From Hyalella azteca (taxonomy: Eukaryota; Arthropoda; Malacostraca; Amphipoda; Hyalellidae), in NCBI RefSeq assembly GCF_000764305.2, contig NW_025946654.1, positions 248,001 to 312,000 on the forward strand: a stretch of 64,000 nucleotides of DNA. Direction: 5' to 3'. The position numbers and the translations under genes were made by a program. The stretch's first letter is position 1. Each line of letters opens with the position of its first letter. Below are positions 7,121 through 51,757 of this stretch, one piece after another. The notes under the pieces were generated by a model, which was not told the origin of the DNA, made no database searches, and saw only the letters and a program-made list of their open reading frames with translations.

Positions 7121-7283
7121 GACATGGAGCAAAACTTGGTGGAATTTCGCATCAAATTCTACATGGAGTAAAACTTGGTGGAGTTTCACATCAAATTCTA
7201 CATGGAGTAAAACTTGGTGGAACTTCACATCAAATTCTACATGGAGTAGAACTTGGTGGAACTTCGCATCAAATTCTACATGG
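7121..7283 (-). repeat. 39-bp tandem array starting at the UNC80 stop codon
   Basis: About four and a half units of 39 bp. On the minus strand each unit begins with TTCTACTCCATGTAG, that is the last codons FYSM plus the stop, and continues into 3' UTR. The unit length is a multiple of three, which is why the plus strand shows a long but meaningless Trp/Ser-rich reading frame. Confidence 0.85.
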
Positions 7284-7482
7284 AGTAGAACTGAGTGGCC
7301 GCGGAGCTCTGCAGTTCAATTTGTCCCATTTTGAACTGTAGCCTCTTGAGCCAGACGTGGAGACTATGGGGGGAGTGCAGTAGAGGCGTCCAGAGAGGCA
7401 GGAGCCTTGTCAGGACGGTCGAGCCACACTCCTGCAGCGCCTCCAGCAGCGACAAGAAGTGCAGACTCACCATCTCACCCAA
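7276..7482 (-). CDS. UNC80: UNC80 x26 (5' part) joined to terminal exon x27, with stop
   Basis: On the minus strand an acceptor (CGTCAG) at 7,483 opens a frame with LGEMVSLHF and LEALQECGST, typical of the UNC80 C-terminal region. It continues without break into the conserved terminal peptide around QFKMGQIELQSS and ends FYSM-stop at 7,276. Compared with the second x26 at 9,350-9,475, the last four codons and the donor of x26 are missing: sequence passes from CTGCACTCCCCCCAT straight into AGTCTCCACG. Either this is a fused exon, or the pyrimidine-rich x26 remnant ending CCCCATAG acts as the acceptor of x27 and x26 is taken from 9.4 kb. UNC80 links UNC79 and the NALCN channel in the neuronal membrane complex. 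Confidence 0.8.
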   Translation of the reverse strand: MGEMVSLHFLSLLEALQECGSTVLTRLLPLWTPLLHSPHSLHVWLKRLQFKMGQIELQSSAATQFYSM

Positions 7483-7705
7483 CTGACGGCATTCAGTTCA
7501 CAATATTTAACACTGAATATGAATGAAATACATATTTTCATTTCACGCATATCTGAACCCTCCAGAAAACCTTAATATACTCCGTTAATTTCTATTTTGT
7601 TCTTCGTCTCCTGGTAGGTGAAGAAAATAAATTTTGGTTTACAATTTCATAGTGTTTTTAGCCAACCTCTTGTAGAAAAAATCCTCTACTCGACAAGTTA
7701 AAAAA

Positions 7706-7886
7706 TATATAACTCAGAACTCACTGCAGTGAATGACAAAGAGCGAATTTTCTCGTCGACGAAAACGTGAAGTCACGGACGGACGGACAGAGAGACGGAC
7801 GGACGGACAGACGGACAGGCAGACAGACGGACGGACGGACATGGTGAGCACAATAGTGCATTTTTCCATAAATGAGAAAAGGCGCT
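7706..7886 (+). mobile_element. short dispersed element with (ACGG)n core, copy 1
   Basis: One of four related insertions (also 31.7, 43.8 and 50.1 kb). They share a left end around ACTCACTGCAGTGA, an internal CGACGAAAACGTGA block, a variable GGAC/ACGG microsatellite and a right end around CATAAATGAG and GCGCTAAAAAT. The paralogous site near 9,690 lacks it and reads straight through an A-run, so insertion is into AAAAA(T). No ORF is conserved. Confidence 0.75.
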
Positions 7887-9171
7887 AAAAATGGGACTGC
7901 CATATAGATTAAGCGACGTGCAGCTTCTAAAACCTGTAAATGTACAGCTAATCGCTACCTTTGAAATTTACTAGCCTTGTTTTCTCCCTTTTTGGAGAAT
8001 TACTTTAGTTCAAACTTTAAATTAATACAAATGTATAATCATAGCCAAAGATACTCTTAATATATAATGTTTGGGATCCTAGAATGTATCTATAAACAGA
8101 ACTAAACAATCAACATAAACAGAACTAGAATTGCTTTATAATGAAGATAAATCAATGCAAACAACACTTTATTTGTACAGAACATAACATCAGAGCATAT
8201 AAAATTCTTTCAATATTTTTGTCATTCAACTCCCACCATTTCTATTACAAAAAATATCGAAATCTATAAATGAATTGGATTTTCGAAAGAGGGAAAGGAA
8301 AAATGACAAACTTTTCCACCTGTAAAATTTACAGAAATAATATACTATCATCCACAAACTCTACAATTATGAAGCAAACTAATAATATTTACATATCTAC
8401 TTCAACAATGGCTACTGTTAATATTCCTACAGACAATGCCAAAATTAATCGAACTAAAATTACACCAACGATGGTCATGACAAAGATGACTGAAATTACA
8501 ATTTTTGCGTGAATGATATACAGAAAAAACGAGCACTGATTTTAAATGCATGAAAAATTCTGATGAGACTAACTAGTAATAATTATATAAGATGTTTGCA
8601 TACAAAATATGAATAATGCAAAAGATGCCATTAGCAATTATTTTGCACCGCGTTTGGTGGATTCAAAGTTAAATTATGGCTGACACATTCTTCACTTTCG
8701 CTCGTGAGCTGTAACAATTTTTATCAATATGGACCAAAATAACTTGAAATTTGACAAGAGCTTCATCAGAGGAAGGGCATTAGGGCATGCAGGGCAATTT
8801 GCTAAGGGCATTGATTCAAATGTTATATCAGTGCCAGCAATTAAAAAATGGCAAAATATTGTTTCCATGCCATGAAGCGTTTCCGGCGAATAAGTTTACT
8901 TCTTCATATTCTTATAATCGATCCGTTCAACGACTTATAAATAAATTGCTGATGTTGGGAGCTGAAGAAGCCGTTGTAGTAATTGGCAGGAGGAAATCGT
9001 TGACAAATATTGAAGAATATTTTCTTAAATTTATTCTTATGAGGAAAGTATGATAGGTTCAAGAAATGACATGATAATGAAATTTAAAAATATCAATCGT
9101 CAGCTATGGAAAGATCGGGTTCCAAAGGCTGGACATCTTGTGAATCAAGTCACGAAAAGTTCAAGAATCGG

Positions 9172-9305
9172 CAACAGGCCATGGGCCTATTTCTTCAATG
9201 CCGACACTTCTATTCTATTATATTATATGATGTTTATGATGTTTATGATGTTTATGAACAGGCCATGGGCCTATTTCTTCAATGCCGACACTTCTATTCT
9301 ATTAT
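9172..9305 (+). repeat. short direct repeat with ATGATGTTT core
   Basis: A 49-bp segment starting CAACAGGCCATGGGCC occurs at about 9,172 and again at about 9,256, separated by several units of ATGATGTTT. It lies in the duplicated non-coding region beside the second x26. Confidence 0.7.
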
Positions 9306-9349
9306 AAGTCAACCTAATCTTGTTCACAAGTCAGGCAGTTGAGGCCCAC

Positions 9350-9475
9350 CTTGCCGTGATGGGGGGAGTGCAGTAGAGGCGTCCAGAGAGGCAGGAGCCT
9401 TGTCAGGACGGTCGAGCCACACTCCTGCAGCGCCTCCAGCAGCGACAAGAAGTGAAGACTCACCATCTCACCCAA
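9350..9475 (-). CDS. UNC80: UNC80 x26, complete copy
   Basis: A 126-bp, 42-codon exon, phase 0 at both ends. The acceptor is CGTCAG and the donor is GGCAAG followed by GTGGGC. The peptide has LEALQECGSTVLTRLLPLW and ends SPHHGK. It follows x25 in phase. It is the intact counterpart of the truncated x26 at 7.4 kb, identical at the protein level over the shared part. Confidence 0.8.
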
Positions 9476-12728: not shown

Positions 12729-12853
12729 AAAGGTCGTGAATGTGGCATGAATGTGGCGTGAATGTGGCATGAATGTGGCATGAATGTGGCGTGAATGTGG
12801 CATGAATGTGGCATGAATGTGGCATGAATGTGGCATGAATGTGGCATGAATGC
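12729..12853. repeat. 11-bp minisatellite next to the x25 donor
   Basis: About eleven units of ATGAATGTGGC, some with a C-to-G or one-base change. On the minus strand the array starts about six bases inside the intron after the x25 donor. Reading frames through it give His/Cys-rich repeats with no biological meaning. Confidence 0.85.
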
Positions 12854-12859: not shown

Positions 12860-12994
12860 AACTTTAGAGTGCGAGACGAGCTGTAGGATGGATGGCGTGA
12901 CCTTAGCCCAGAAGTCTGTGAGCAACGCGCACGTGGAGTTGTAGACGTCGGTACCTGGAGTACCTGCGTTCTGCTCCAGGTACACCGTCCACAC
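12860..12994 (-). CDS. UNC80: UNC80 x25
   Basis: A 45-codon exon, phase 0/0. Acceptor GTCTGCAG, donor AAAGTT followed by GTGAGT. The peptide begins VWTVYLEQ and has LTDFWAKVTPSILQLVSHSK, matching the UNC80 region just before the C-terminal helices. The first 14 exon bases and about 34 upstream intron bases are duplicated just upstream (13,000-13,075). In the upstream copy the AG has become TG, so it should not be used. Confidence 0.85.
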
Positions 12995-13075
12995 CTGCAG
13001 ACACCCCACAGTCTTCAACACATGGTCTATACACCGTCCACACCAGCAGACACCCCACAGTCTTACACACATGGT
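12981..13075 (-). repeat. 48-bp tandem duplication over the x25 acceptor
   Basis: Two copies of a unit containing CAGACACCCCACAGTC plus the first 14 bases of x25. Only the exon-proximal copy keeps the AG. Confidence 0.8.
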
Positions 13076-13432
13076 CTATCACGCGGCGTCTTTGCTATTG
13101 TATTTCAACTGGCGCACGCGGGGTTTGCATTATGCACGATTCTTTCCAGTTAATGTCTTCAAGGGTGTTCATGCCCAGGGTAATATTTAATATTTAGCGG
13201 GGCTATCTGGCATACGTAGAGCTTGTGTTTTTCAATAGAAAGAAAATTTAATTAATGCAGCAATAACGCATTATAAGCTTGGTAGCAGTTATTACGAGTA
13301 CGAACTGTGTTTGCAGTGAAATATATTTCCGTAAAGGGCCACTGGATCAAATTAGCTTTATGTATCAAGTTCATGGAGCAAAATACTTCAGTGGTGCTAA
13401 AAAAATATGATTCAGTCAGCACGGTTAGTCAC

Positions 13433-13904: not shown

Positions 13905-14245
13905 TATGGAGGTCCAGTTCATGGGGTTTATCAGAGTGTCAGCGGCAATTGATAAGTCCGGTGTCGGCTTGGTGTGTCCATGTCCGGGGTTACAGGTCCA
14001 GTTCATGGGGGTTATCAGAGTATCAGCGGCAATTGATGGGTCCGGTGTCGGCTTGGTGTGTCCATGTCCGGGGTTACAGGTCCAGTTCATGGGGGTTATC
14101 AGAGTATCAGCGGCAATTGATAGGTCCGGTGTCGGCTTGGTGTGTTGTCCAGGGTTACAGGTCCAGTTCATGGGGGTTATCAGAGTATCAGCGGCAATTG
14201 ATAGGTCCGGTGTCGGCTTGGTGTGTCCATGTCTAGGGTTACAGG
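13905..14245. repeat. 84-bp minisatellite, four units
   Basis: Units start GGTCCAGTTCATGGGG at 13,911, 13,995, 14,079 and 14,160. Because 84 is divisible by three, both strands show open frames of more than 100 codons. The paralogous intron at 32.87-33.03 kb has fewer and shorter units, so the copy number varies. Confidence 0.9.
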
Positions 14246-14888
14246 GCTTGAGTTGCCTCTCTCGGTTGCCAAATCTTCTGCAACATCGCGTTCTCCTTCT
14301 CAACTGCGTTGCCACTCGCGGCATGCGAGGTTCACGAGATGAGGGTCAAGTCTAAACTTTTTGGATTACATTGGAGCGGGAAACTAATACGTCTGAACAC
14401 TTAAAGGTCTCTGCCAGCGGGTACGGTTCGTGGACGATTGAAACAACCAATGATGATGTTCAGGCCGAGCTTCACTTAAGAAACTTGCGATAATTACTTG
14501 TAAATTTCAAAATCAATTGCACCTAAGAAGTCCAGATAACGTAGAAAGTTAACACAGCAATCATGGGCACAACAATTGGTATGATGAAGTCGCTCCCTAA
14601 TAGAGATAGACTACATCCGAGAACAGTTCGGCTAGAACATTTTTCTCCGCAGTCGTCTGTCGAGGAGTGCGGCGGCTTCAAACCTAGTGCACAAAGCGAG
14701 GCCAATATCTGGTCGTTAAAATATGATGTTATGTACCTTATATATGTAGCAAACAAACGCCGAAAACACAACAATATTACCAAAAAGTGAGATCTTGAAT
14801 TGCGAGGAAATGAAAAAAAAAGAAGTATATATATTCGTTCACTTGAGCAATTAATTAAAGGAAACTAACATCTGAAGATCCAACAACA

Positions 14889-14975
14889 AAATATATATAT
14901 CAGTTATATATCAGTATATATCAGTTATATCAATTATATATCTGATATATCAGTTATATATCAGTATATAACAAA
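14889..14975. repeat. AT-rich (TATATCAGT)n tract
   Basis: A tandem tract of TATATCAG-like units in the x24-x23 intron. The paralogous position near 33.68 kb has almost none of it. Otherwise 14,250-15,080 is ordinary intron. Confidence 0.75.
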
Positions 14976-15089
14976 ATATTTACTGGATTAAAAACCCTTC
15001 ATGATTGAAAAGGGCGCTGTATTCAAGAATAAACGGATATTAAGATAAATACGATGCAGTCTGTATTAGAAGTTCTAGATGTAAAATAC

Positions 15090-15255
15090 CTGAATGTGGT
15101 CAGCGATGTGGCAGGAGGCGTCAGGTGGTACAGGCATGCACACAGATGGTATGCTGGTACCAGTACCCGTCTGGTTGCAGGTATGCAGGAGTGACCCAAC
15201 CAGCAGCCATGACAGTAGCCTGATGTGGCTTACGCAGTCCAGAAACTCTTTTTGC
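15090..15255 (-). CDS. UNC80: UNC80 x23, copy 1
   Basis: A 166-bp exon with acceptor TTTTTCCAG and donor CATTCAG followed by GTATTT. One base completes a Gly codon left by x22, then QKEFLDCVSHIRLLSWLLVG and a serine/proline-rich tail ending CHIADHIQ. The hydrophobic helix and the HIADH end are UNC80 hallmarks. The protein-level sequence matches the second copy at 33.8 kb. Confidence 0.88.
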
Positions 15256-15519
15256 CTGGAAAAAGTCGAGTCTGGTCAATTTTGTAAATACGCTTATTTT
15301 AAATCCACCACAGCCGTTATATTTGGAATTGAAAATTTAAATTTTCTTGCCGTACGTAGTCTGTCGAATGGCGTCATTTCTTTCTAATTTTAATTAGCCA
15401 CGTAAAAGTATTCAGATGACTAGACAAGACTCTAAAATAAATATGACGGTAGGTGTAGTCTTCAACCAAAAATGACAGATATTTTAGAGGTAAATGAGAT
15501 CAGACTGCCTCGTTTCTGG

Positions 15520-15600
15520 GAAGTGGGCGGGTTGTTCAGCCACGGAAAATATTTATTGAAGAACCTCGTATCTTATTTTAGACTTAATTGAGACAAAACT
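15520..15600 (-). repeat. duplicated fragment of x22 downstream of its donor
   Basis: About 50 bases of the 3' part of x22 (minus strand, around ATTTTCCGTGGCTGAACAAC) recur in the following intron, just past the donor, without a donor of their own. The same arrangement is seen near 34.24-34.29 kb. Confidence 0.7.
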
Positions 15601-15603
15601 CAC

Positions 15604-15758
15604 CCTTGTTGCATGGCAGTGGGCGGGTTGTTTAGCCACGGAAGATATTTATTGAAGAACCTCGTATCTCTTGCGTGGCCACGGCTGATCTCCAGCGAGA
15701 GGTACTGCGCTATGCCGGCCTTCAGGAGCCCGCCTATGGTGTCTTGGTTCAGGCCACT
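15604..15758 (-). CDS. UNC80: UNC80 x22, copy 1
   Basis: A 155-bp exon, phase 0 in, phase 2 out. Acceptor AAGCAG, donor CAAGG followed by GTGAGT. It encodes SGLNQDTIGGLLKAGIAQYL and later LPWLNNPPTAMQQG, the most diagnostic UNC80 peptide in the window. It joins x23 to give a continuous AMQQGQKEFLDCV. Confidence 0.92.
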
Positions 15759-16193
15759 CTGCTTATCAATCAAGAAATAATCATTATTAATATATAGGGA
15801 GATAAAATTATACAATAGATAGATAAAATAATCAAAAATAGATTTTTGGAACGGGGAAAGAATTTATAATGTACACTTATTATGCATATATTCTATTGAG
15901 AGATGTGATTATTATTTTCTTGTTTGTAGAGGGTTCACAGTAGAAATGGAGTTATTAAATTGTGACATTCTATTCATAGGAGTAGTGTATCGATATTCAG
16001 TCGACGACAGTTCCACTGATGAACTATAATACTGACCAGAAAGTTATATTTTAATTGACTTCTCTCTTTGAATTTCATGATGAACAACGAAAGAAATAAA
16101 TTTATATCAGGTAAGAGGCAAAACAGTGACTAAAAATGCACATAATTAAAAGTAATAACAGTAATAGAGACATGTAGAGATCATGATGGCGAC

Positions 16194-16367
16194 CTTTATC
16201 TTGGTGAGCGTGTGGACGTCTGCGATGAAGTCCATAATGTCGCTGATGTAGGAGGCGCGGATGCACTCAGCCACCAGCGTCGAAGTTTGTGGACTCAGAG
16301 GATCTGTGCCCGAGGGGCTTGTCGTCACGTCCAGTACAGGGTTGGGGCCAATACTTCCGCCATTATC
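16194..16367 (-). CDS. UNC80: UNC80 x21, copy 1
   Basis: A 58-codon exon, phase 0/0. The acceptor follows a T-run and reads CTGAAG. The donor is weak: AAGATAAAG followed by GTCGCC. The peptide begins DNGGSIGPNP and contains LVAECIRASYISDIMDF and LTKIK. The acceptor and first 29 exon bases are repeated twice more upstream. Confidence 0.82.
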
Positions 16368-16590
16368 CTTCAGAAAAAAAATTTATTAACAATTACCATC
16401 AAGTGAAACCATGCAGCACTTGGGTTGGGGCCAATACTTCCGCCATTATCCTTCAGGAGAAACATTTATTAACAATTACCATCAAGTGAAACCATGCAGC
16501 ACTTGGGTTGGGGCCAATACTTCCGTCATTGTCCTTTGAGAATTACCGTAATTACTGCCATCATTGTGATTTAAAAATAAACGCGTATCA
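16339..16590 (-). repeat. 83-bp array over the x21 acceptor, three units
   Basis: Units begin at about 16,339, 16,422 and 16,505. Each holds on the minus strand a pyrimidine-rich stretch, an AAG acceptor and the first bases of x21 (GATAATGGCGGAAG or a variant). The paralogous site at 35.1-35.2 kb has two, the second more decayed. Confidence 0.85.
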
Positions 16591-16772
16591 TGAATTACCG
16601 TTAGGTTTTGGCGTGGCATCATGAGGTATTTGGGTTGGACAAATAATTCCGCTATTGTCATTGAAAAAAGAAAGCGCACCACTAATGGCCGTCAGATTTT
16701 GGTATTGTATCATGCGGCTCTTAGATTGGTGACAATATTCTCTATATTGTTCATTTAGGTAATCATTCTCAC

Positions 16773-16847
16773 CGTGAGGTATCGATATGATGTGGTAACC
16801 TGTGCACGGTACATCCAGTTCCTGTCAACCCACCTTTGCACCACACA
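16773..16847 (-). CDS. UNC80: UNC80 x20, copy 1
   Basis: A 25-codon exon, phase 0/0, ending TACCTCACG before GTGAGA. The peptide is CVVQRWVDRNWMYRAQVTTS then YRYLT, a conserved UNC80 segment. The acceptor is taken as TTGAAG. An AAG a few codons downstream is an alternative, so the 5' edge is approximate. Confidence 0.8.
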
Positions 16848-17255
16848 CTTCAATTGTGCCATACATTAGAATATCTGGAATTTGTGTCGATAGATTCAGG
16901 TATTACTTAAGAAAGTTTTAAAATGTAAAGTTCGGATATCCAATCTTAAAGAGAGCATAGAGAAGATAATAGTCTAACAGTTGGGTATGCTCCAAAGTAT
17001 TCAAAGAAATATGAATAAAATAACAAATAAAGGAATTAAGTTGACGAGCTAGCAGACTTCGTGGATATGTCTGGACATTTAGAAAAGTATTATTGAAAGA
17101 GTTAACAAAGATACTGCACATGTAATACGTTATTATAACTCATAAAAGAGTGAAAATTTAGTGCAACCAGAAACACGTGTCATAAGAACCTTACAGTGAA
17201 GGTCCGCACGATTGGAATCGTTTTTAGATTTATCTTCATTAACCTTTAGGATCAC

Positions 17256-17372
17256 CTTCAGCATTAAAAACATGAACATGACCAAGTTGCTGTCAGGTAA
17301 AGTAACCTTGAATTTCAGCGCTTGGATAAGTTCCAGCGCCATCATGCGAGCCAGGAACAGCTTGTCGCGCTC
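17256..17372 (-). CDS. UNC80: UNC80 x19, intact copy
   Basis: A 39-codon exon, phase 0/0, acceptor TTAACAG, donor CTGAAG followed by GTGATC. The peptide ERDKLFLARMMALELIQALK and the following LPDSN are strongly UNC80-like. It joins x18 (CTKTFPK) and x20 in phase. The copy at 35.9-36.0 kb is disrupted, so this appears to be the usable one. Confidence 0.88.
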
Positions 17373-17663
17373 CTGTTAAATAAACCTCAAAATGTACTTA
17401 CATTCATGATAATTTTTTATATTTTGCGATCGATATACTGAAATTTAACAATATTTTTCCAAGAGTATATATACGTTCTATCTATTTTCACAATATTTCT
17501 TCCAGCTGTACGCAAAATATTCTAATGTTAACTACATCGAAAATTTCAGTTTTGATGATTGTATAAATTAAAGCATATTGTTCAATTATACACAGGCCAA
17601 TCTCCTCTCCCGGATTGGATCATCAATTTCCGAGAGTAGAGTCCATCCTGGAATTTTTGTTCG

Positions 17664-17664
17664 N
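17664..17664. other. single N at a copy breakpoint
   Basis: Left of the N the sequence matches 36,180-36,302, upstream of x19. Right of it the sequence matches about 41,525 onward, between x13 and x12. The N therefore joins two non-adjacent parts of the gene and probably marks a contig join. Confidence 0.8.
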
Positions 17665-17955
17665 ATACGCCATTTAATGTCCGCTTCAGCTCTGACTTTT
17701 AAGCGTAGCTTGCACGTTCAGTATGACTAGGCTTGGCCTCCCTTTCTCATACTCCAAGGTGACCATAAAGTCAGAAAGGAAATTCTAACCACAAGCCAAT
17801 TTTGATCGGGTGGCCAAGCTAACCCGGAATAACTTAAGGCCGAATGTAGTGACTTCTTCTGTGCAGAAACCTAGGCGGTCGCCAAATTTTATTAGGGAGA
17901 ATTTAAAAGCAAAGCAAAGAAAATAGCAAGGAAATTCACCATTTCTTATAAAATA

Positions 17956-18188
17956 CTTAAAAAAACTTTTTAAAAAGCACATTTTTCTTGTGGACTAAAA
18001 AGTAGAAAATGAATTATGGCTCGCCGCAAAAAACGTGGGTACGTTCACCATCAAATTTCCAAAATTCGTGTGTTGTGTGCTTCTCGCTTTAATCATAAAT
18101 TTGCCCGACCCACGTTTTTTGGGGCGAGCCATAATTTATTTTCTACTTTTTAGTCCACAAGAAAAACGTGTTTTTTTTAAGTTTTTTT
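17956..18188. mobile_element. foldback element, copy 1
   Basis: Arms of about 70 bp are near-perfect reverse complements: the left contains GTGGACTAAAAAGTAGAAAA and the right TTTTCTACTTTTTAGTCCAC, with GGCTCGCC/GGCGAGCC further in. The central loop is about 80 bp. A second copy is at 41.80-42.04 kb. No transposase is encoded. MITE-like. Confidence 0.8.
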
Positions 18189-18880
18189 AATGTATTTTAT
18201 TTTCTCTTTTTTAGTCCTACATAATATTCATTTTAATTCAGTTGGCCACGCAAATGCACGAAAGAAAATTCTTTTCGAAGTTCTGTAGAAAATTGTATTC
18301 GAGAGGATACATTGGTGAATGTAATTTCATTTCATTTCATGCACCTATTGAATAAATTCCACGCATTTCATTGAATAAATACGCCTGGAAACGTGCAACA
18401 AATTATTGATTATTGTATTGTCATCGGGAGCTGAGCTTCCCTAAAAGTTTCAGAGCGCTAGCTAGCGGGAAAGTTGGTGAAATATCGATTGCAAGATTTG
18501 ATCATCACAGACGGACACGAAAGCGAGCTATGAAAAACGTGGTAATAAAGGAAACGTTTCGGAGTCTAGCTACATCGTCAGTTCAAAACCTGAAACACAG
18601 GTACAAACAATAAGCAAATACATTCACATTATAGCACAAATCGTCAAATGACTTTTTCCTTTATAATAAATGGTGAATTTTTTGGCTATTTTCTTTGCTT
18701 TTAAATTCTTGATAAACTTGCGATTTAAGTGATTACGATCAAGTGATCGTAATATTTTCGTTAGGGATTTTTAATGCTGTTATTTTGTTTCTTCTACGTT
18801 TAGACCTTAATTACTCAGCATTTGTTGCTTAATAACACTTTTTACGTCATTGGCGTCATTGCAAGTTCTATTTCACTCAC

Positions 18881-19081: not shown

Positions 19082-19264
19082 CTGGCAATGCGGTTGTAAT
19101 GCAGCATTATTTTATCATAGGTTTGCCAAGATGGGCAATATTGATAGAAATAATTGATTGCTTTTTGGTTAAGGCTTGTCCAGCTTGTATAACAGAACAC
19201 GTTATTTCAAGAGCAGAGATCAAACTACAACCATTGAGTATCTATATTTCCTTGTGTCGCTCAC

Positions 19265-39535: not shown

Positions 39536-39542
39536 CTCCGTT

Positions 39543-39617: not shown

Positions 39618-39619
39618 AG

Positions 39620-40550: not shown

Positions 40551-40556
40551 CTTTAC

Positions 40557-40785
40557 CTATGACCGAAGACACGCTTTGCACAGTTTCGGCATCACTTTTG
40601 TCGATAGAAACTCGGTAGTTGACAACGGTGGTTTTGTCTTTACCCAAATACGGTAAGACGGCCTTGCCGTGGCTGACGGCCTGAAGGTCTGTCGTCTGCC
40701 GAGGGCTTAGAGGTCCTCTCAATTTTTCCTCAACTGAGGGGGTCTCGCACAACTTTTTTTCTGGCTTTTGACCATCGCTGATAAC
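40557..40785 (-). CDS. UNC80: UNC80 x13, copy 1
   Basis: 229 bp, acceptor TTCGTCAG, donor GTCATAG followed by GTAAAG. It encodes VISDGQKPEKKLCETPSVEE and later KAVLPYLGKDKTTVVNYRV. Phase 1 out, which fits x14. The phase from x12 (1) does not fit its phase 0 start, so an exon between them may be missing or unseen. Confidence 0.65.
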
Positions 40786-41095
40786 CTGACGAAGTTCAGT
40801 GGCTGCACCGGAAATAAAGTAATAAATTAGAGATAACCTGACGAAGTTCAGTGGCTGCACCGGAAATAAAGTAATTAATTAGAGATAACCTGACGAAGTT
40901 CAGTGGCTGCACCGGAAATAAAGTAATTAATTAGAGGTAACCCGACGAAGTTCAGTGGCTGCACCGGAAATAAAGTAATTAATTAGAGGTAACCCGACGA
41001 AGTTCAGTGAATGCACCGGAAATAAAGTAATTAATTAGAGGTAACACGTCGAAGTTCAGTGGCTGCACTGAAAATAAAGTAATTACTTAGAAGTA
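40786..41095 (-). repeat. x13-acceptor array, about six units
   Basis: Units of about 58-60 bp, each with GACGAAGTTCAGTGGCTGCA on the plus strand. On the minus strand each recreates GAACTTCGTCAG or close to it before GTTA. The longest of three arrays of this type in the window. Confidence 0.88.
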
Positions 41096-41797
41096 ACCTG
41101 TCAAGGTTCAGTAACTGAGATTGAATAAAACTAAGTAATTAGTGATATCCTGACAATACCTAGTGGCTGGACCAGATGGAAAGTTATTAATTAGTGGTTA
41201 TCTTACTTATTTAGTGGCAGGGCCAGAATGAAAATAACTAATTAGTCATACCCAGGCGGACTACAGTGCCGGGACCTGAAGGAAGTAGGTATTTCATGAT
41301 ACTCATCCAGCAGATTAAGTAACGCTCTCCAAAGTTTAGCAGTCGATAGGAATGTTTAACGTTTGTAATATTGATGAGTAGTGAATCTACCGGAAATTCC
41401 ACAATGTTGGTTCTACAACCACTACCAAGAGCATATCACACCCTCTTTACCATACAAAAATTCTTAAATAATTTTTTGCAATCCCGACTAAATGGGTGCC
41501 GCCTAGGACTCAGGAAATACGTATATCAGCCATTTAATGTCCGCTTCAGCTCTGACTTTTAAGCGTAGCTTGCACGTTCAGTATGACTAGGCTTGGCCTC
41601 CCTTTCTCATACTCCAAGGTGACAATAAAGTCAGAAAGGAAATTCTAACCACAAGCCAATTTTGATCGGGTGGCCAAGCTAACCCAGAATAACTTAAGGC
41701 CGAATGTAGTGACTTCTTCTGTGCAGAAACCTAGGCGGTCGCCAAATTTTATTAGGGAGAATTTAAAAGCAAAGAAAATAGCAAGGAAAATACTTAG

Positions 41798-42035
41798 AAA
41801 AAACTTAAAAAAAGCACGTTTTTCTTGTGGACTAAAAAGTAGAAAATGAATTATGGCTCGCCCCAAAAAACGTGGGTTGGGCTGTACGTTCACCATCAAA
41901 TTTCCACAATTCGTGTGTTGTGTGCTTCTCGCTTTAATCATAAATTTGCCCGACCCACGTTTTTTGGGGCGAGCCATAATTTATTTTCTACTTTTTAGTC
42001 CACAAGAAAAACGTGTTTTTAAAAAAGTTTTTTTA
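41798..42035. mobile_element. foldback element, copy 2
   Basis: Same as the element at 17.96 kb, with arms carrying ACTAAAAAGTAGAAAATGAA and GGCTCGCCCCAAAAAACGTG. An extra partial arm follows at about 42,040-42,085. Frames on both strands start MARPKKRG because the arms are inverted copies; they are not genes. Confidence 0.82.
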
Positions 42036-42273
42036 GGTAATTTATTTTCTACTTTTTAGTCCACAAGAAAAACGTGTTTTTTTTAAGTTTTTTTAATGTA
42101 TTTTATTTTCTCTTTTTTAGTCCTACATAATATTCATTTTAATTCAGTTGGCCACGCAAATGCACGAAAGAAAATTCTTTTCGAAGTTCTGTAGAAAATT
42201 GTATTCGAGAGGATACATTGGTGAATGTAATTTCATTTCATTTCATGCACCTATTGAATAAATTCCACGCATT

Positions 42274-42440
42274 ATGCTCGGAACAGGTAGTGGTGGCGTC
42301 ATACATGACTGTGGTGAGGTCAGTGGTGCTGGAGCACACTGTCGTCGCCTCGATGCCAGACTCCTCGCTGTAGTCGGGGGGCGCCGCGCCCGCTGCTGCA
42401 TACGCGCACCAACAAAACATCGCCGCTTGAGTGTCATCAA
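42274..42440 (-). pseudogene. UNC80 x10, 5' half only
   Basis: The x10 frame is present from its start through YDATTTCSEH and then stops at a junction with TTCCACGCATT, sequence that elsewhere (18,370) lies before x12. A deletion of about 1.4 kb relative to the 18-20-kb copy has removed x12, x11 and the x10 3' half with its donor. Confidence 0.75.
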
Positions 42441-42699
42441 CGCATGGCGCCATGCAAGAAAATTACGCATTTTCCACTAACAAAATAGCTATAACTTATC
42501 ATAAGGTTGCGCACACGTTTGAAGTGCTCCTGGAGAAAAATGCACCTACTTGACATGGGTTGATGCAAAACGATTAATTTTTGTTGAAGTGATAGTATAG
42601 CCTTTGGCAATAATAGTACAAACTTGAAACTACTCCAGATGTAAGAATAGATTTATTAATACTATTAATATTAACTAAACAACGTATTTTTCAATGGAC

Positions 42700-42797
42700 C
42701 TCGCACTGTAGACGAGCTTCACCTTCTTTTGATGAGCGCTCAGGTCGGACGGGGAAGTCGACGCTGTTCTGCACGAAGACATTCCCCGTGGGGGTTA
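42700..42797 (-). pseudogene. UNC80 x9, copy 4, acceptor region replaced
   Basis: The frame GNVFVQNSVDFPVRPERSS is kept, but upstream of GACCCCCACGG the normal AACTGCCTCCTCTC (plus) is replaced by AATCACTAAATTAA. The usual acceptor is gone; a TTTAG nearby could substitute in frame. Confidence 0.5.
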
Positions 42798-43453
42798 AAT
42801 CACTAAATTAAATTATATCACTACAGTCACTATGTCAAAGTTTTCAAGAGGACTGAAATATTCTCAATCATTGCAGGAAAGTTGTTAATGGAATTTCTCC
42901 CCAATTCTTGTGTGTAGTTTAGCAATGCTCCACAAAATATCCAGCGACTGAATTTGAAAGCATTCGCTAAAGAATTTTCTCGCATCTTATTACAAGTTTA
43001 GTTTCATTATTTCACAGTTTTTCTCGGTTTACAATGCTGAATTAAATAATGTAATCAACAAGTTTCTCATCAAGTAACTTATTGATTATTTTATTACTGC
43101 CAAATATTGCTTTAATTTGTTGACCACTTATCTAAAATTTCACCGTATTAGTGTATAAAAACGTAGACTGAAATTTTAATAAAATTTTTTATCAATAAAT
43201 ATATCAAATGAATGATACTCACTAAATGTTGGAAATAATACTAAATGTTCGAAATAATTATAAATAATAAATATAATCACAGCATTAGACAAGATAACAT
43301 AAAAAGAACTCATTGAAGGCCTCACGCTTTCATTGTTACTCTCGCCGGACGCCCCCCAGGCCTCCTATGTTTGAAATAATTATAAATAATAAATATAATC
43401 ACAGCATAAGATAAGATAACATCAAAAGAACTCATTGAAGGCCTCTCGCTTAC

Positions 43454-43733
43454 ATTGTTGCTTTCGCCGGACGCCTCCCAGGCCTCCGGATCTTCCTCAA
43501 TGCAGATCTCGAAGGCAAGTTTTGTGGCCGCCCTCGAGATGTTAAAATCGCTCGACGAATCAGTCGACGTGCTCGACGAGAGCCAATATGACGTGGATGA
43601 ACGCTGTGACGAGCCACTGGATTTAGGAGTGGATGAACTGACGTGGGTCTGGACGAGGGCGCGTCGTCCTAAAGCTTCCTTTAAGGACGACATCGTCTCG
43701 TCGCCGTCTCCAGGAGTTTCAGACAGCGCGTTG
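43454..43733 (-). CDS. UNC80: UNC80 x8, copy 1
   Basis: 280 bp, acceptor CGTGCAG, donor GTAAGC. NALSETPGDGDETMSSLKEA through the serine-rich region to EDPEAWEASGESNN. The end and donor are duplicated once at 43,305-43,365. An ACGG-type element sits about 60 bp upstream of the acceptor. Confidence 0.75.
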
Positions 43734-43792
43734 CTGCACGAATGTTGTTAGTTTCCATTTGTTAACAAATTATTTTCTTTTAAAAGACGCAT

Positions 43793-43950
43793 TATAGCGC
43801 ATTTTCTCATTTATGGAAAAATGCCCTATTGTTCTTGTCATGTCCGTACTTCCGTCCGTCCGTTCATCTGTCCGTAACTTCACGTTTTCGTCGATTTCGA
43901 GAAAATGCCATCTCTGTCACTCACTGCAGTGAGTACTGAGTTATATTTTT
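43793..43950 (-). mobile_element. ACGG-core dispersed element, copy 3
   Basis: Same insertion site and orientation as the copy at 31.7 kb, with a different microsatellite length. Presence in both block copies shows it predates this duplication. Confidence 0.72.
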
Positions 43951-44282
43951 TACATAATCCATTAATGAGTTATTATCAACTGAATTTTGATTTGTGTAAG
44001 AACACGATTCAAAATTTGGATAGTAGATATAAATAAAATTTTCTAGAAATTGGAACAGATTTGCTTATCTAGCAGAATAGCTCGTAGTTTAAGAGGATTG
44101 ATAATTTCGGAAATTTTAGAATACCGTTAACTGGAAATCCTGTTATTAGGAATAAAGCTAATTAGGTTAATACCAGCAATTTCTTATTAAAGCTACATTT
44201 TACATACTCATAGGATTCCCATCTGACACACGTTAAAACATGCGAAAAAACTTTATATCTGTCCTTAAAATTAATTATATAT

Positions 44283-44550
44283 TCCATATGACAAATAACA
44301 CGCTAATAACACCTGGAAGAAGAGGCAGGTGAGGCAGCGGTGTATATATTATATACATATGACACATAACACTAATAACACCTGGAAGAAGAGGCGGGTG
44401 AGGCAGCGGTGTATATATTACATGCATACAACAAATAACACGCTATAACACCTGGAAGAAGAGGCAGGTGAGGCAGCGGTGTATATATTACATGAATATA
44501 ACAAATAACACACTATAACACCTGGAAGAAGAGGCGGGTGAGGCTGCGGT
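44283..44550 (-). repeat. 60-65-bp array over the x7 donor, four units
   Basis: ACACCTGGAAGAAGAGGC (plus) recurs four times at about 60-bp spacing. On the transcript each unit carries the x7 end CTTCTTCCAG and the GTGTTA donor intact. Intervening parts have TGTATATATTA spacers. Confidence 0.88.
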
Positions 44551-44683
44551 TGAGGCAGAAGTAGACGCCTGAGTCGAGTCGTGCGCAGTCGCAGAGAATC
44601 TGCTCCTGAGTCCCTGGAGCGCCTGTTCGCTCAGCCGCTGCAGGCCAGAGTCGTCGTCGTCTGCAAGCTCCGCATTGTGAATC
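44522..44683 (-). CDS. UNC80: UNC80 x7, copy 1
   Basis: 162 bp, the same protein as 32,458-32,619. A foldback element lies 13-14 bp upstream of the exon start, so the acceptor keeps only AACTCCACGGCAG of its native context. Confidence 0.68.
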
Positions 44684-44696
44684 CTGCCGTGGAGTT

Positions 44697-44868
44697 TAAA
44701 TAATAGTTTTATAACAGTTATATCCAGGGCAACCTAGGGGAACCTACTTAATTGAGAGTTGATTGCATTGGTTGCTAGAAAAAAAGGCTCCCAGTAGAAA
44801 TACGTGCAATAAAGTAGGTTCCCCCAGGTTGCCCTGGATTTAACTGTTATAAAACTGTTATGTAATTA
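44697..44868. mobile_element. foldback element beside the x7 acceptor
   Basis: Arms at 44,705-44,749 and 44,812-44,856 are 45-bp reverse complements with two mismatches, starting AGTTTTATAACAGTTA. The copies at 24.7 and 32.6 kb read straight through (GGAGTTTCAGTCCAAC), so this copy has gained the element. Confidence 0.8.
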
Positions 44869-44869
44869 A

Positions 44870-45590
44870 GTCCAACATTTACTCGTCGAAAAATGATACA
44901 ATGACACTATATAAAACTGCAGTTTTAATAAGTATTTGATAAGTAGAACTTGTTATATTTAAAATTTAATAAGTATAAAATAAGTATTTAGTGTTAATAC
45001 TAGGAGTGCTTATATCAAATTTGGCCTATCAACTGTTTGCACGTTAGTATGGTTGCTATTGAGAAGGGAGGCCGTCTTGCTAAAATTGGTCCCAATGACA
45101 ATTAAGGCTGCGTTACTTCGCAAGATGAAAGTTTAGTGAATTATTGCAGCTATTTAGCACCCAGCCAATTTAAAAATTATTCTCTTTTTAAGTAACAAAA
45201 ATGCTCATCCCTTTTTGTTTTAGATTTGTTAGTTCCGTGATTTGAAACTTTCTCAATTAAAGGCAACTCGTGCCACTTGTCTGGAATGTCAGCCGTTTAT
45301 TATCATACGTGACAATGATTCAATCACTTAACAGGAAGTAGGTTAAACATAGGTAATAATGGTGCAGTCAATTAGATTAGTTTGGCTAGTAAGATTTGAT
45401 TTATGACGTCACTTTCTTGCTTGTATAGGCTGCATGTGTTTTAAGGGAAATATCACGCAATAAAGCGGATATGAAGAGGAAATTGATAAGTGCAACCTTC
45501 AGTGCAACTCCATTTGCACGATGATGAACAGTTAATCTGTTGCTCTATACGCGGGATGGTAACGGTATTTTATTATTAAGTGTATTTTAT
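44870..45590. other. intron between x7 and x6
   Basis: Matches 24,760-25,450 and, in its first part, 32,640-32,860. No exon seen. Confidence 0.5.
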
Positions 45591-45674
45591 TATTAGTGAC
45601 GACTATGAAGTATGGAAATGATGTTGAGATCAAGTGTGAGTGAGGTAAATTTCAAGGGTAATATTTGCACGCAC

Positions 45675-45877
45675 TTGACCGTAAAGGAGTCGTCAAAAGC
45701 TTGTATCTGCGACGCCATGACTGACGTGACCGCCGTGGACGAGTCTCTGACGTGGGGCGTTGGTGCCGAGATTTCTTTGGCAACCGCAAACTGCACGTCT
45801 TCTGTGCTGCACGTCTCGGCTTTCAGCTCACCTTCGTCAGGCAGCGTCTTGAGGCAGTCGGCGTCGTACCAAATGTC
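45675..45877 (-). CDS. UNC80: UNC80 x6, copy 1
   Basis: 203 bp, same protein and splice sites as 25,531-25,733 (DIWYDADCLKTLPDEGELKA). It joins x7 as FTVK|IHNAEL. Confidence 0.77.
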
Positions 45878-46079
45878 CTGTTGTTTTCGCAGCTTCGTCA
45901 ATAATTCGTTTTAATCGTAATTAATTAATTGATATATGCGAAAGTATCTTAGTCGATTGATCGCAATTCAGCCAGTAAGCCAATTTATTAATCGCACCTT
46001 AGGCCGGCATCTTGATATATAATTAATCGTAATTCGAGCAAGCATCGACATTTATTTATGGTATTCTATTTATCGACGA

Positions 46080-47030
46080 AATTTTTGTCCTTGTTCGCGA
46101 CGAAGATCCCATGCCTGAGCTACGCGTGGCCTTAGAACTCAATTCACTTTTGACGTTCACCTGCGAATCTTGGCTAAATCAGACATTGCCCTTCCTCGAT
46201 ATACACGTGCAAGTAGAAGATACAATGTTTGTCACTAAAGTTTACCGAAAACCTGTAGACGTGTAAAGAGTACTGAACGAAGCAAGTGAATGTCCCCAGC
46301 GATACAAAACCAGCACTATTCGCGCCCTAATACATAGGGGCATTTAAAACCTGTACATCCGCCAGTGACTTGAGAACTGAACTCCAGACCTGCGAGCAAA
46401 TTCTGGTAAACAACGGCTATGCGAATAAAACTATCGACAGCGAAATCTCAAACTATCGACCACGTCCAAGCCAAACGGACAATGAACCAATATCCAACAA
46501 AAGTATTATAACAATTTATTACCAAAACCAGATGACTGAAGGCCACAAGACAGACGAAAGAGTCCTCAAATAAATTGCGCTGAAAAACATCAGAAGCACA
46601 ATCGAAGCAAACCGAATCAAATTCCTGATTTACTATAAAAACATGAAACTCAAGAATATAAAAATTAAAAAAATAATTCATGCAAATAGCCGGGTCCATT
46701 ACAAGAAACTAATGTTATTTACAAATATTCCTGCCACAAAGAAGGTTGTAGACTTCTCCAGAACGTAAATTACATCGGTTTGACCAGCACGACTTTGAGC
46801 CGCCGCCTAACATGCCACCTCCAGACCGGAGGACCGAAGAACCACATGAGAGAGGCTCATAATGAGACCCTTACTCGCGCGACGTTGGAGACCCACACCA
46901 GAATCATCATGAGATGCCCAGACGCCACAAGACTGGCCATAGCTGAGGCTCTCATTATCAAACAGGAGTCTTCAGCTATTAATTTGCAAACTACCGGACT
47001 TGTCAGGACGTTGAAACTGTTCTCGTAATT
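46080..47030 (+). mobile_element. Penelope-like retroelement remnant, copy 2
   Basis: Paralogous to 25.93-26.88 kb, with its own stops. Pieces with LPFLDIHVQVEDTMFVTKVY and ASECPQRYKTSTIRALIHRG are closer to a canonical reverse transcriptase than in copy 1, followed by the GIY-YIG-like end. Non-functional. Confidence 0.8.
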
Positions 47031-48075
47031 TATGCTTTGATTTCAATCTGTATCCATAATATCTTTGTTTGTACAAACGTTTCAAAATTTCAAATTCAAG
47101 TGCTGCAAAACTCTTCCCATACTTGATTATGAATGAAGATCCATTAGAAACGTCGTAAATGATAATGAAATGTCCCTTGGAAACCTGATATTTGAGTTTT
47201 CAATTCCTATCAAGAGCCTAATTCGCCGAATAGAGAAAAACAATAAGAAAATTGTCAATAAGAAATACTCTCTAGTCTTCAATGAAACCTGCATTAAAAA
47301 CAACGTATGCCAAACTTCACCAATGGTATTATATGCAAGCATATTTTCTTACTTAATTCTGATTAATAAAATACTCCATTGTAATTTTATCAAGATTACA
47401 AGTACACTTGAGCCGTAAATCTTATCAATAAATCCATACTTCTGGGGCCGAATCCTCCTGCGCCTCTTCGTTGAAAGAGGCGTTCAGCTGCACTTTGGCG
47501 CTGCCATGGAAACGATCAAATATTCATGTTAAATTATAATAATGGAAACATGAAAGTTTATTTCGGTGCTTAAAAAAGACTAATAAATATGACTACTGAA
47601 ATTAATTTATTTACTCAAGATATTTAATTTCATTAAATGACTCCTCCCAATCACCAGAATAATTGGCGATGTGGGCATGATTGAGCTCAGTATCTAATTA
47701 TCTACATTGAATATACACTGTCCATCATATACATATATTGTAAACAATAGTCGGATATGATTCTTATAACAAAACAAGTAATTTAAAAGATCACTTCCAT
47801 AAGTCATGCATTGTTTTCCAATTATCACAATGGTTAAATTGAACAACAAGTTACAGTAGTAGAATAATCGATCATGTATTATAATTTAATGTTAGCAAAC
47901 TACAAATCGTCTATAGCCGTGGACGTGGACGATATAAATATGCTTTTAAAATACTATGTTTCCATCACACGGAGCATAAAATAATTCCATTCAATATCAA
48001 TAATAATGAATAACACATTCTTGGTACATTTATGTAATTAGCCAAAAACGTTCAAAAACTCAGAAAAAATGATTG
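47031..48075. other. intron between x6 and x5
   Basis: Aligned with 26,881-28,010. No exon or RNA gene recognised. Confidence 0.5.
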
Positions 48076-48080
48076 CTCAC

Positions 48081-48315
48081 CAGCCGTCTTGTCCGGTGAC
48101 GATTGTCGCCACGACTGGGCCGTAAGTTTCCCCTTCTTCTGGGGATAAAACCTGGGTGAGGACGAGCTCAGGAGCGTCCCCACGACTACCCTCGCTGGGG
48201 GGAAGACGCACCGTTTCGTCCCTGGCAGCTAGGGCACCAATGCCCGCCGTGGGGCTCCGGTCTCCCCCCTCATCCACGGTATCCACGTCCCCACCCAACG
48301 AGCCCAGGCTCGTCT
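48081..48315 (-). CDS. UNC80: UNC80 x5, copy 1
   Basis: 235 bp; TSLGSLGGDVDTVDEGGDRS to VVATIVTGQDG. It differs from copy 2 at a few residues (ALAARDETVR against APAAGDETTP). Phase 1 in, phase 2 out; x6 starts in phase 0, so the x5-x6 join is unresolved. Confidence 0.68.
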
Positions 48316-48510
48316 CTGATCCCCAATTTTGGGGCGAATCGAGCGAGAAAAATTAGAGGTTTTCCTGAGTTTTTAGGCTGACTTCAGGAAATATTGGTAA
48401 CTTTTAAATGCTTGTTTAGCAACTCGATGGTACCTCTCCTCTAGGGTAATACACTAAGGAGAAAATATTACCCTGATAACCTCTCTTACAACCACTGGAT
48501 GGTACCTCAC

Positions 48511-48652
48511 CTCTAGGGTAATGAATTGAAGATGTGGTGACGGCTGTGGCGTGGTCCACACGGCATCTGTGGTAGTGACGGTCCAGAGTGTTGAGTGTGA
48601 TGAGCACCAGACTCACCACCTGTCCCTTCAGGTAGCTCTCGTCGCAGTCAAA
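48511..48652 (-). CDS. UNC80: UNC80 x4, copy 2
   Basis: 142 bp, acceptor TTGGTCAG, donor CTAGAG followed by GTGAGG. Same protein as the other copies except one residue. The nearby upstream intron is undisturbed, unlike the 49.9-kb copy. Confidence 0.8.
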
Positions 48653-49279
48653 CTGACCAAGGTGCACAAAAATGATGCTATACGGCAGCTGTATTTTGAG
48701 GGTCGTAAGACATGCACAAATTTTGCTCGTTGCGAGATAGATTTCTTTAATTGAAACAATAATTTAGGTTATTTACATAATTTTATGCGAGCTTGAAAAC
48801 TATTTAGCAAGTTTTCCCGAATATTACGTTATTATTATTTTGTTTCTGCATTTTAAGTAAATACACGGAGCAAATTTTCCACACTGTAAAAAAAAGGAGC
48901 GCAATCTATGGGCACTTTCGGCAATATATATTTCCGTTATTTAATATCAAAAAGAGCGGCGTTTACAGGAAAATTTACATTAAAATTATGACAAACAGCG
49001 ATCTTCAGATATTTCCTAACGATATGCACTGTGCAGATTTGATGTTCACAACTCTCGTCCGAACCATAACGTGCCTTACGCAAGCCCATGCACACGATAG
49101 CAACACGTCGCGTTAGTATCTGTTTTATCGGTATCAGACGAAGTCATCCAGATCTTGCTCTCTCTGTGTTGTCAGTATACGTGCCGTGTTACCCATTGTG
49201 TTTCAGTACCAGCTGTGCCCCGTCGGATTACTCGTACATGCACAATATTAATTATTAATATTTTTGACAAGGAAGTCAC

Positions 49280-49502
49280 CTTATAGAGGATGGTGAGTGT
49301 GGAGGTGAGCCAAGCCTTCCTGATGGTTGGTTGCAGCATCCAGAGACTGTACGTGGGTTGCCGCAAGTCCTGAACCTTGTGGACTGCAGGACTGAACTGC
49401 AACACCGGCACGATGATAGCGATGATCTTCTTAGCCATCAGGAAATTGTGGTCCAAAACGTGCGCTAAATTTCCTATGAATGAATTGAACACCGGCGACG
49501 CT
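49280..49502 (-). CDS. UNC80: UNC80 x3, copy 2
   Basis: 223 bp, acceptor CTTGCAG, donor TATAAG followed by GTGACT. It encodes ASPVFNSFIGNLAHVLDHNF and QPTYSLWMLQPTIRKAWLTS. It joins x2 through a split Arg codon and x4 in phase 0. Confidence 0.85.
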
Positions 49503-50101: not shown

Positions 50102-50259
50102 ACAACTCAGTACTCACTGCAGTGAGTGACAGAGAGCGCATTCTCTCAAAATCGACGAAAACGTGACGTCACAGACAGACGGACGGACGGACGGACGGAC
50201 AGACGGACGGACATGACGAGCACACTAGCGCCTTTTTCCCATAAATGAGGAAATGCGCT
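50102..50259 (+). mobile_element. ACGG-core dispersed element, copy 4, with target duplication
   Basis: Flanked by AAAAAT at 50,096-50,101 and 50,260-50,265. The empty site at 48,668 reads CACAAAAATGATGC. Starts ACAACTCAGTACTCACTGCA (a palindrome, ACTCACTGCAGTGAGT, lies within) and ends AAATGCGCT. This copy gives the clearest element boundaries. Confidence 0.82.
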
Positions 50260-50664
50260 AAAAATGATGCTCTACGGGAGCTGTATTTCGAGGGTCGTAA
50301 AACGTGCACAATTTTTGCTCATTGCATGATAGATTTCTTTAATTGAAACAATAATTTAGGGTATTTGCATAATTTTATGCGAGCCTTGAAAACTATTTAG
50401 CAAGTTCTCCCAAATACTGCGTTATTATTGTTTTGTTTATGCAGTTTAAACAAATACATGAAGCAAATTTTCCATACTGCGAAAATAAAAATGGGGCACA
50501 CAATCTATTAGCACTTTAAGCAATAATATTTCCGTTGTTTAATATCAAAAAGAGCGGCGTCTACGGGAAAATTTACATTAAAATTATGACAAACAGCGAT
50601 ATCCAGATATTTTCTAACGATATGCACACTATTAATTATAAATATTTTTTGACCAGGAAGTCAC

Positions 50665-50887
50665 CTTATAGAGGATGGTGAGTGTGGATGTGAGCCAAGC
50701 CTTCCTGATGGTTGGTTGCAGCATCCAGAGACTGTACGTGGGTTGCCGCAAGTCCTGAACCTTGTGGACTGCAGGACTGAACTGCAACACCGGCACGATG
50801 ATAGCGATGATCTTCTTAGCCATCAGGAAATTGTGGTCCAAAACGTGCGCTAAATTTCCTATGAATGAATTGAACACCGGCGACGCT
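50665..50887 (-). CDS. UNC80: UNC80 x3, copy 1
   Basis: 223 bp, same protein as 49,280-49,502. Acceptor GTTGCAG, donor TATAAG followed by GTGACT. Nearest copy to x2. Confidence 0.85.
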
Positions 50888-51147
50888 CTGCAACGAGGAT
50901 TACGAACCAAGGGATTATTTAAGGCTCTATTGTTATGAAAAATATTAATAATATTTATACGTTTCAGCTGAAGTTTGATTGTATTTTTCGCTGTTAAGAG
51001 TGCCTTTCGATTGTTTAAAGTTAAGGCTGCGTACGAAGAAACTTCAGATTAGTTCGACATTGTTGAAAGAGAAGCTTCTGAGTTTTTAATGGTAATAAAA
51101 CTATTAGACGTAAAAAAGGGTTCGAATGGAATGCTGCAGCCATTACA

Positions 51148-51235
51148 CCTGAGTTTGGCAGGGCTGACAGAGAACCATTACCTGAGTTTGGCAGGGCTGA
51201 CAGAGAACCATTACCTGAGTTTGGCAGGGCTGAAA
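51148..51235 (-). repeat. 33-bp array over the x2 donor, three units
   Basis: CCTGAGTTTGGCAGGGCTGA repeats at 33-bp spacing. On the transcript two units carry AAACTCAG before GTAATG, at 51,214 and 51,181; the outer unit has GTGTAATG. Reading past the first donor meets a TAA at once. Decayed units also lie near 49,800-49,860. Confidence 0.88.
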
Positions 51236-51339
51236 GAGAAGTTTTTCTCGATGGTGCTGAAGCCCATGAGTCCTGCCACGTGACGAAGGACGGCATCAAT
51301 TGACTTCACGCCGCCTTTCTCCTCTTCAAGGCCGCCAGC
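51215..51339 (-). CDS. UNC80: UNC80 x2
   Basis: 125 bp, acceptor TGGCTCCAG, donor CTCAG followed by GTAATG. It encodes AGGLEEEKGGVKSIDAVLRH then VAGLMGFSTIEKNFSFSPAK, and joins ASPVFNSF of x3. Phase 0 in, phase 2 out. Confidence 0.82.
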
Positions 51340-51449
51340 CTGGAGCCAAATGCAGCATTTGCTATATTAATTGAGATAATACTTGGCTCCTGACGAGCAA
51401 TTAAAATCAAGATGTTACTCAGCACCAGTCTAGATATTTTTGTTAAGAT

Positions 51450-51757
51450 AATGTTTTGCTACTGTCGAGCTGTATTTACTAAGATATCGTTGTTAAGTAA
51501 GGAAATGCTATGAAACTATCATCAAGTGGCCGCACAAAGAACGCTGTTTGTTAAGATATTGTTTTGCTACTGTTGAGCTGTATTTATTAAGATATCGTTG
51601 TTAAGTAAGGAAATGCTATGAAACTATCATCAAGTGGCCGCACAAAGAACGCTGTTTGTTAAGATATTGTTTTGCTACTGTCGAGCTGTATTTATTAAGA
51701 TATCGTTGTTAAGTAAGGAAATGCTATTAAACTATCAAGTGGCCGCACAAAGAACGC
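51450..51757 (-). repeat. about 114-bp array abutting the x1 donor, three units
   Basis: Units carry TTGCTACTGTCGAGCTGTAT and AAGTGGCCGCACAAAGAACG. The array starts at the x1 donor on the transcript (GTGCGTTCTTTG). The two distal units read AGCGTTCTTTG and have no GT donor. Confidence 0.85.

Follow-up and report, generated by a model that had tools for sequence, protein, structure and literature searches.

The 64,000-nucleotide stretch of Hyalella azteca DNA analysed here (NW_025946654.1, positions 248,001 to 312,000, or C4601:248001-312000 in the 519-Mb assembly; hereafter the window) carries exons of the UNC79 gene on its minus strand. UNC79 is a partner of the NALCN channel. In this gene, tandem arrays cover exon edges about twofold more often than expected by chance, which is an excess, though not an overwhelming one. 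The arrays lie close to exons, many of them repeat the splice site, and the number of units differs between homologous copies of the same exon. We consider that the arrays are probably ordinary young minisatellites arising from a high background of tandem duplication, lying preferentially near exons and for the most part neutral.

Tandem arrays over the exon edges of UNC79

The gene was taken for UNC80 in the initial annotation, where the exon numbering was also off. UNC80 was rejected, because solved UNC79 chains in the PDB match at E 2e-32 and crustacean UNC79 proteins also match, in order along the gene. The closest protein to the window exons is P0001 of the amphipod Trinorchestia longiramus. 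The amino-terminal exons follow upstream on the same contig, again in order, at about 314-342 kb. A Pfam scan of the whole window in two forward frames gave no match, the gene being on the opposite strand. Exon edges in the window were placed by homology to P0001 together with GT/AG and phase, giving a set of 78 edges (77 splice sites and the stop codon) in which repeated exon copies were counted and unplaceable edges, such as the x9 donors and the x14 acceptor, were excluded.

Arrays were called between 7,100 and 51,940 by Tandem Repeats Finder (TRF; score at least 50, period at least 9, overlapping rows merged). TRF recovered arrays at nearly all places named in the initial annotation, confirming that they are real. 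The 29 arrays in this gene part of the window occupy 4,481 of 44,840 bp (10%), and the chance background of edge hits is therefore high. When array positions were compared with random placement, as the initial annotation had suggested, 12 of the 29 arrays covered an edge vs 6.8 expected, with p from 0.009 (rotation) to 0.019 (independent placement), and 14 of 29 lay within 8 nt of an edge vs 7.5 expected (p 0.003-0.007). The excess was also observed under GC-matched placement (12 vs 7.5 expected, p 0.03) and after block copies were collapsed in two ways (8/16 arrays vs 4.6, p 0.049; 7/16 vs 3.6, p 0.038). Counted by edges, 12 of 78 (15%) were covered vs 7.5-7.7 expected (p 0.053-0.066), and relaxing the TRF score to 30 gave 12 of 53 arrays vs 7.9 (p 0.066), so that the strength of the excess depends on the counting unit and TRF score chosen. 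Thus the location of arrays on exon edges was correctly noticed, but the estimate that about half of the boundaries are affected was too high. The arrays concerned are the following.

7122..7292, minus strand: 39-bp array over the stop codon, 4.4 copies (TRF)
12737..12852, minus strand: 11-bp array (TRF), beginning 8 nt into the intron past the x24 donor (12860); site not repeated
12981..13079, minus strand: 49-bp array (TRF) over the x24 acceptor (edge 12994); AG lost in the extra copy
16339..16536, minus strand: 83-bp array over the x20d acceptor (edge 16367); the homologous acceptor at 35132 has one copy
24170..24408, minus strand: 122-bp duplication over the x8d donor (edge 24379)
28399..28513, minus strand: 56-bp array over the x4c donor (edge 28502); of the three x4 copies, TRF called it in this one
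29700..29950, minus strand: 52-bp array over the x12c acceptor (edge 29714)
35903..35953, minus strand: 28-bp tandem duplication within exon x19, frame-shifting; x19d (17256-17372) is without it
36762..36858, minus strand: 33-bp array over the x18 acceptor (edge 36848); AG/AACATC three times, all in frame
39056..39478, minus strand: 30-bp array over the x14 donor (edge 39451), about 14 copies
40782..41198, minus strand: 52-bp array over the x12 acceptor (edge 40802); more copies than at x12c
43221..43487, minus strand: 122-bp duplication over the x8 donor (edge 43454); GT lost in the extra copy
44285..44550, minus strand: 70-bp array over the x7 donor (edge 44522); x7c (32458) has one unit
51147..51240, minus strand: 33-bp array over the x2 donor (edge 51215)
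51439..51757, minus strand: 108-bp array starting 3 nt past the x1 donor (edge 51760); flush, site not repeated

The units are mostly of the length expected for minisatellites or variable number tandem repeats (about 10-100 bp), a few being longer (108-139). An array of about 60 bp assigned earlier to an x13 acceptor corresponds either to the x12 acceptor array or to a 61-bp array at 41977-42123, which touches no placed edge. The x19 array, listed earlier among those at exon edges, in fact sits inside its exon.

The amino-terminal half of the gene (C4601:314500-342500), which lies outside the window and beyond what the initial annotation had covered, served as a held-out region. It contains 27 arrays and 37 edges; the edges were placed with a crab protein, some of them less certainly than in the window. 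The excess recurred there more weakly, with 9 of 27 arrays covering an edge vs 5.5 expected (p 0.08-0.10), two of these nine depending on the uncertainly placed n2 acceptor and its duplicate. When both regions were pooled, 21 of 56 arrays covered an edge vs 12.4 (p 0.004). Proximity to exons was more general than coverage of edges: 23 of 29 window arrays lay within 120 nt of an edge vs 14.4 expected (p 0.0005), as did 17 of 27 held-out arrays vs 10.5 (p 0.026). Once this proximity was taken as given, 21 of 40 pooled arrays covered an edge vs 19.2 expected (p 0.33).

Comparison with other genes of the same genome, also proposed in the initial annotation, was carried out with myosins. Thirty loci of myosin-head exons were merged into 16 pieces (70,416 bp), which contain 53 of 90 listed exon matches and in which 92 edges (47 acceptors and 45 donors) were placed automatically. 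No plain excess was detected in this set, where 8 of 46 arrays covered an edge vs 7.1 expected (p 0.41). The argument that random minisatellites should not pick splice sites is not supported, since random placement alone yields about 7 edge hits in the window and nearly as many in the myosins as were observed there. The site sequence recurs at least once at each of the eight covered myosin edges, indicating that arrays at splice sites are not special to UNC79, while the plain edge excess is not shown beyond it. As a separate observation, one myosin exon (profile 376-436) occurs five times in succession at C3480:70706-73952 on the minus strand, resembling clusters of mutually exclusive exons.

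Reiterated splice sites and turnover of copy number

The splice site itself is reiterated at 18 edges, 11 in the window and seven in the held-out half. As x8/x8d and x12/x12c are block copies, 16 of the 18 are distinct. The held-out sites are the n3b donor (8 copies), the n7 donor (7), the n5, n10, n17 and n18 acceptors, and the n19 donor. Altogether 63 extra copies were identified, of which 57 retain an intact GT or AG. Of the cases in the initial annotation, x1 (flush) and x19 (within the exon) are without a repeated site.

The number of units differs among homologous copies of the same exon, as is characteristic of variable number tandem repeats, the comparison here being made within one assembly. 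Unit numbers are 2, 1 and 3 for the copies of x4 (by search core), 2, 1 and 2 for x8, where the third exon copy (donor 31374) carries a single 122-bp unit, and 6 and 3 for x12; differences were also found at x7, x20 and x19. The stop-codon array varies likewise, since the two copies of the last exon on contig C2432 have 5.4 units in one and none called in the other. These differences between homologous copies indicate that the arrays are young. For the 33-bp repeat at x18, the Trinorchestia protein has one unit. The same UNC79 protein contains five 21-residue units ending where exon x11 begins, an edge without array in the window; these units would lie at the x11 acceptor.

Duplicated exon blocks and assembly of the window

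Comparison of the window with itself revealed aligned stretches as long as 2.5 kb, most of them at 82-100% identity, and exons x3-x9, x12 and x19-x22 are present two or three times. The main blocks and the single Ns at their boundaries are as follows.

14206..36300: block x19d-x22d (14206-17661), repeated as x19-x22 (32993-36300)
24740..49402: block x3c-x6c (24740-29187), repeated as x3b-x6 (44866-49402)
17664: single N at the border of a duplication block, interpreted as an assembly join
30591: single N at the border of a duplication block, interpreted as an assembly join

Exons x10 and x11 were found only downstream of x12-x22, and for the x13-x18 stretch the assembly gave a single full match among the 40 candidates scored out of 319, an interspersed repeat accounting for nearly all the others. 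It follows that no linear transcript could include all exons in order. A single linear order of UNC79 exons free of repeats was thus not found, and we attribute this to the assembly. Identity is 94.7-100% in 12 of 13 exon pairs (87% in the x19 pair) and 85-96% in 22 of 26 flanks of 300 bp, the remaining four being lower. Because exon pairs are more alike than their flanks, both copies seem to be kept under constraint, as expected for contigs of different haplotypes. The exon pairs x6, x20 and x22 are identical across 203, 174 and 166 bases, synonymous sites included, while the adjoining introns differ by 4-15%; this is a stronger constraint than we can explain. A further, diverged version of the 3' end of the gene, itself rearranged, is present on contig C2432; its last exon is complete, where that of the window is fused.

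Taken together, the mosaic of the window quite likely consists of haplotype contigs interleaved by the scaffolder. Some scaffolders write a single N for a predicted overlap. Among nine single Ns, duplicated flanking sequence was clear at two (340090 in C4601 and 61208 in C2432), a 66-bp match was found at 211486, and none was found at six, indicating that the Ns alone are no proof of allelic joins. Some exons have three copies, which needs more than two haplotypes or some real duplication. Similarly, in the heterozygous Parhyale assembly, allelic contigs are described as assembled apart, with homologous contigs of 70-95% identity and mate-pair scaffolding by SSPACE (PMC5111886). Unlike here, Parhyale contigs of at least 95% identity were set aside before scaffolding according to that description, and the three-copy exons of the window exceed two haplotypes. 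Repeated exon blocks in the Hyalella assembly should not be taken as real gene structure without long reads.

Several other features were observed in the same region. A second tandem block duplication (53328-57691 and 58853-62779, 90-97% identity) lies in the long intron upstream of x1. In the held-out half, exons n11 and n2-n3 each occur twice in a row (C4601:325392-326083 and 340354-341908), the aligned protein being identical for n3 and n11, and both copies of n11 (C4601:325960 and 325392) end in an apparent GC donor, CAG/GCAAGT. The x5-x6 intron of both block copies contains the remains of an element on the plus strand (45.9-47.2 kb and 25.9-26.9 kb), which we take to be a Penelope-like element; one of four open frames tested matches GIY-YIG with E 0.0028, below the curated cut-off. 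An interspersed repeat of about 350 bp (38215-38568), present at no fewer than 39 further places in the assembly at 77-84% identity, has an edge lying about 25 nt or less from the x16 acceptor.

Origin of the arrays at exon edges

If the arrays are ordinary young minisatellites, a high rate of tandem duplication in this amphipod genome would generate them, preferentially near exons, and wherever a duplicated unit crossed an exon edge the splice site would be repeated into the intron. Tandem repeats are given as 6.18% of the genome in the account of T. longiramus, a related amphipod (PMC7062882). Edge-crossing duplications would be tolerated, as the exon end keeps its original site and splicing removes the additional copies together with the intron. 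Selection would eliminate arrays occupying exons, so that those crossing an edge stop shortly inside the exon. Copy number at the edges would then drift, and the introns would predate the arrays. The arrays would be mostly neutral, and splicing would take place at the outer site. As to why arrays should lie near exons, breakage or slippage at the step in base composition between GC-rich exon and AT-rich intron would be our guess.

Several results weigh against this reading, and some of them favour exon edges as true hotspots, at which breakage at the GC step, R-loops or stalled transcription would duplicate junctions several times above the intron rate in many genes. When exon cover was limited to 60 nt, 19 of 54 arrays covered an edge vs 6.2 expected (p below 1e-5), and with proximity added as a condition 19 of 38 vs 12.7 (p 0.02), which exceeds what proximity alone explains. 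Among arrays with a best-scoring period of at least 30 bp, 21 of 37 covered an edge vs 10.6 (p 0.0002), and none of 19 with shorter periods vs 1.8; every edge-covering array has such a long best-scoring period, although the basic unit at n7 is 29. These cuts were not set in advance, the period of 30 having been picked after the period lists were viewed and the exon limits of 40, 60 and 90 nt with the data in view. Also the covered myosin edges, with their reiterated sites, are all acceptors (8/8; p 0.006), a bias that neutral tolerance does not predict, and among myosin arrays of period at least 30 an excess appeared under the exon limits of 90 nt (7/22 vs 3.2, p 0.03) and 60 nt (6/20 vs 1.6, p 0.003). 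The 21-residue units of Trinorchestia at an edge arrayless in the window are in line with hotspots as well. On the other side, the plain myosin test gave no excess, the pooled excess in UNC79 fades when exon proximity is given, and the ends of the units are widely scattered about the site, their exon part ranging from 7 to 87 nt (uncertain n2 edges excluded), so that nothing points to the splice site itself. We regard hotspots at exon edges as a possible but less probable explanation than ordinary minisatellites. That junctions are hotspots genome-wide, constantly supplying alternative sites and material for intron sliding, is rather unlikely.

Selection for spare sites, and duplication favouring AGGT as in intron gain, had both been offered as causes in the initial annotation. 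If extra sites were kept by selection as spares or for alternative splicing, their GT and AG should be better preserved than the surrounding bases. Pooled identity in the extra copies is indeed 0.952 for the dinucleotide vs 0.873 for the other 22 positions, and at donors each GT base is kept in 39 of 40 copies, as against 34-37 for the five preceding and 29-34 for the five following bases. The pooled gap is due to the long donor arrays x14, n7 and n3b, however, and the effect is gone when averaged by site (0.909 vs 0.905 for the ten bases closest to it); among acceptors, 21 of 23 copies retain AG, which is not above its neighbours. The three in-frame acceptors at x18 all leave an open reading, but use of an extra donor at x2 or x14 would lead to an immediate in-frame stop (AGG TAA, AGG TGA), and copy number is not kept between homologous copies. 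Selection of this kind is thus quite improbable. Intron gain by tandem duplication of AGGT-containing sequence is more improbable than any other explanation considered. Some units carry CAG/GT at the junction (x2, x7, x14), and for two of 20 introns (x12-x13 and x14-x15) the end-to-end score would rank among the top 5% of mismatched pairs; over all 20 introns, however, donor and acceptor sides are not copies of each other (mean score 13.2 vs 12.9 for mismatched ends), and off-edge array units contain AGGT at the background rate (5/35 vs 3.9; outside the gene 3/21 vs 2.9). In addition, the arrays lie at one end of the intron, and homologous exon copies share the edge with a single unit. With no AGGT excess, unlike intron ends and spare sites no better kept per site, neither intron gain nor selection is supported. 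It is also very unlikely that the arrays are assembly artefacts from unmerged contig overlaps. Such an origin would fit the two single Ns on block boundaries, the location of at least three of nine Ns in or between arrays (311435, 327985, 340090) and the block ends found within arrays (20/85 vs 8.5 expected), although the last association is partly circular, because copy-number differences themselves break alignments. The units of edge arrays are mostly several percent apart, however, and no N lies near the x14 array with its roughly 14 units. A purely artefactual origin was rejected on the basis of the 122-bp duplication at x8, which occurs at the same place in two diverged copies.

Minisatellites across splice sites are already known in other genes and species; here there are 18 reiterated sites in one gene, and some in other genes. 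De Grassi and Ciccarelli (2009; PMC2812944) described human genes in segmental duplications whose exon-intron boundaries carry variable internal tandem repeats; there, as in UNC79, minisatellite units of about 30 bp cross the boundaries and vary between duplicated copies. Their survey, as described, covered many genes with transcript support and retained 27 intron modifications after inspection, unlike the 18 sites of one gene recognized here from sequence. Intron gain by tandem duplication is reported for a potato RdRp gene (PMC4974935) and for Drosophila (PMC2891723). There too the duplication carries splice signals, and the potato duplication likewise crosses an intron-exon boundary; unlike in those reports, no new intron is seen in UNC79, and the extra units are inside introns whose homologous copies have a single unit. 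The initial observation is sound in kind and overstated in degree, a junction hotspot being possible. If junctions in this species are truly prone to duplication, it would show how splice-site choice handles many equal sites and how copy number alters splicing.

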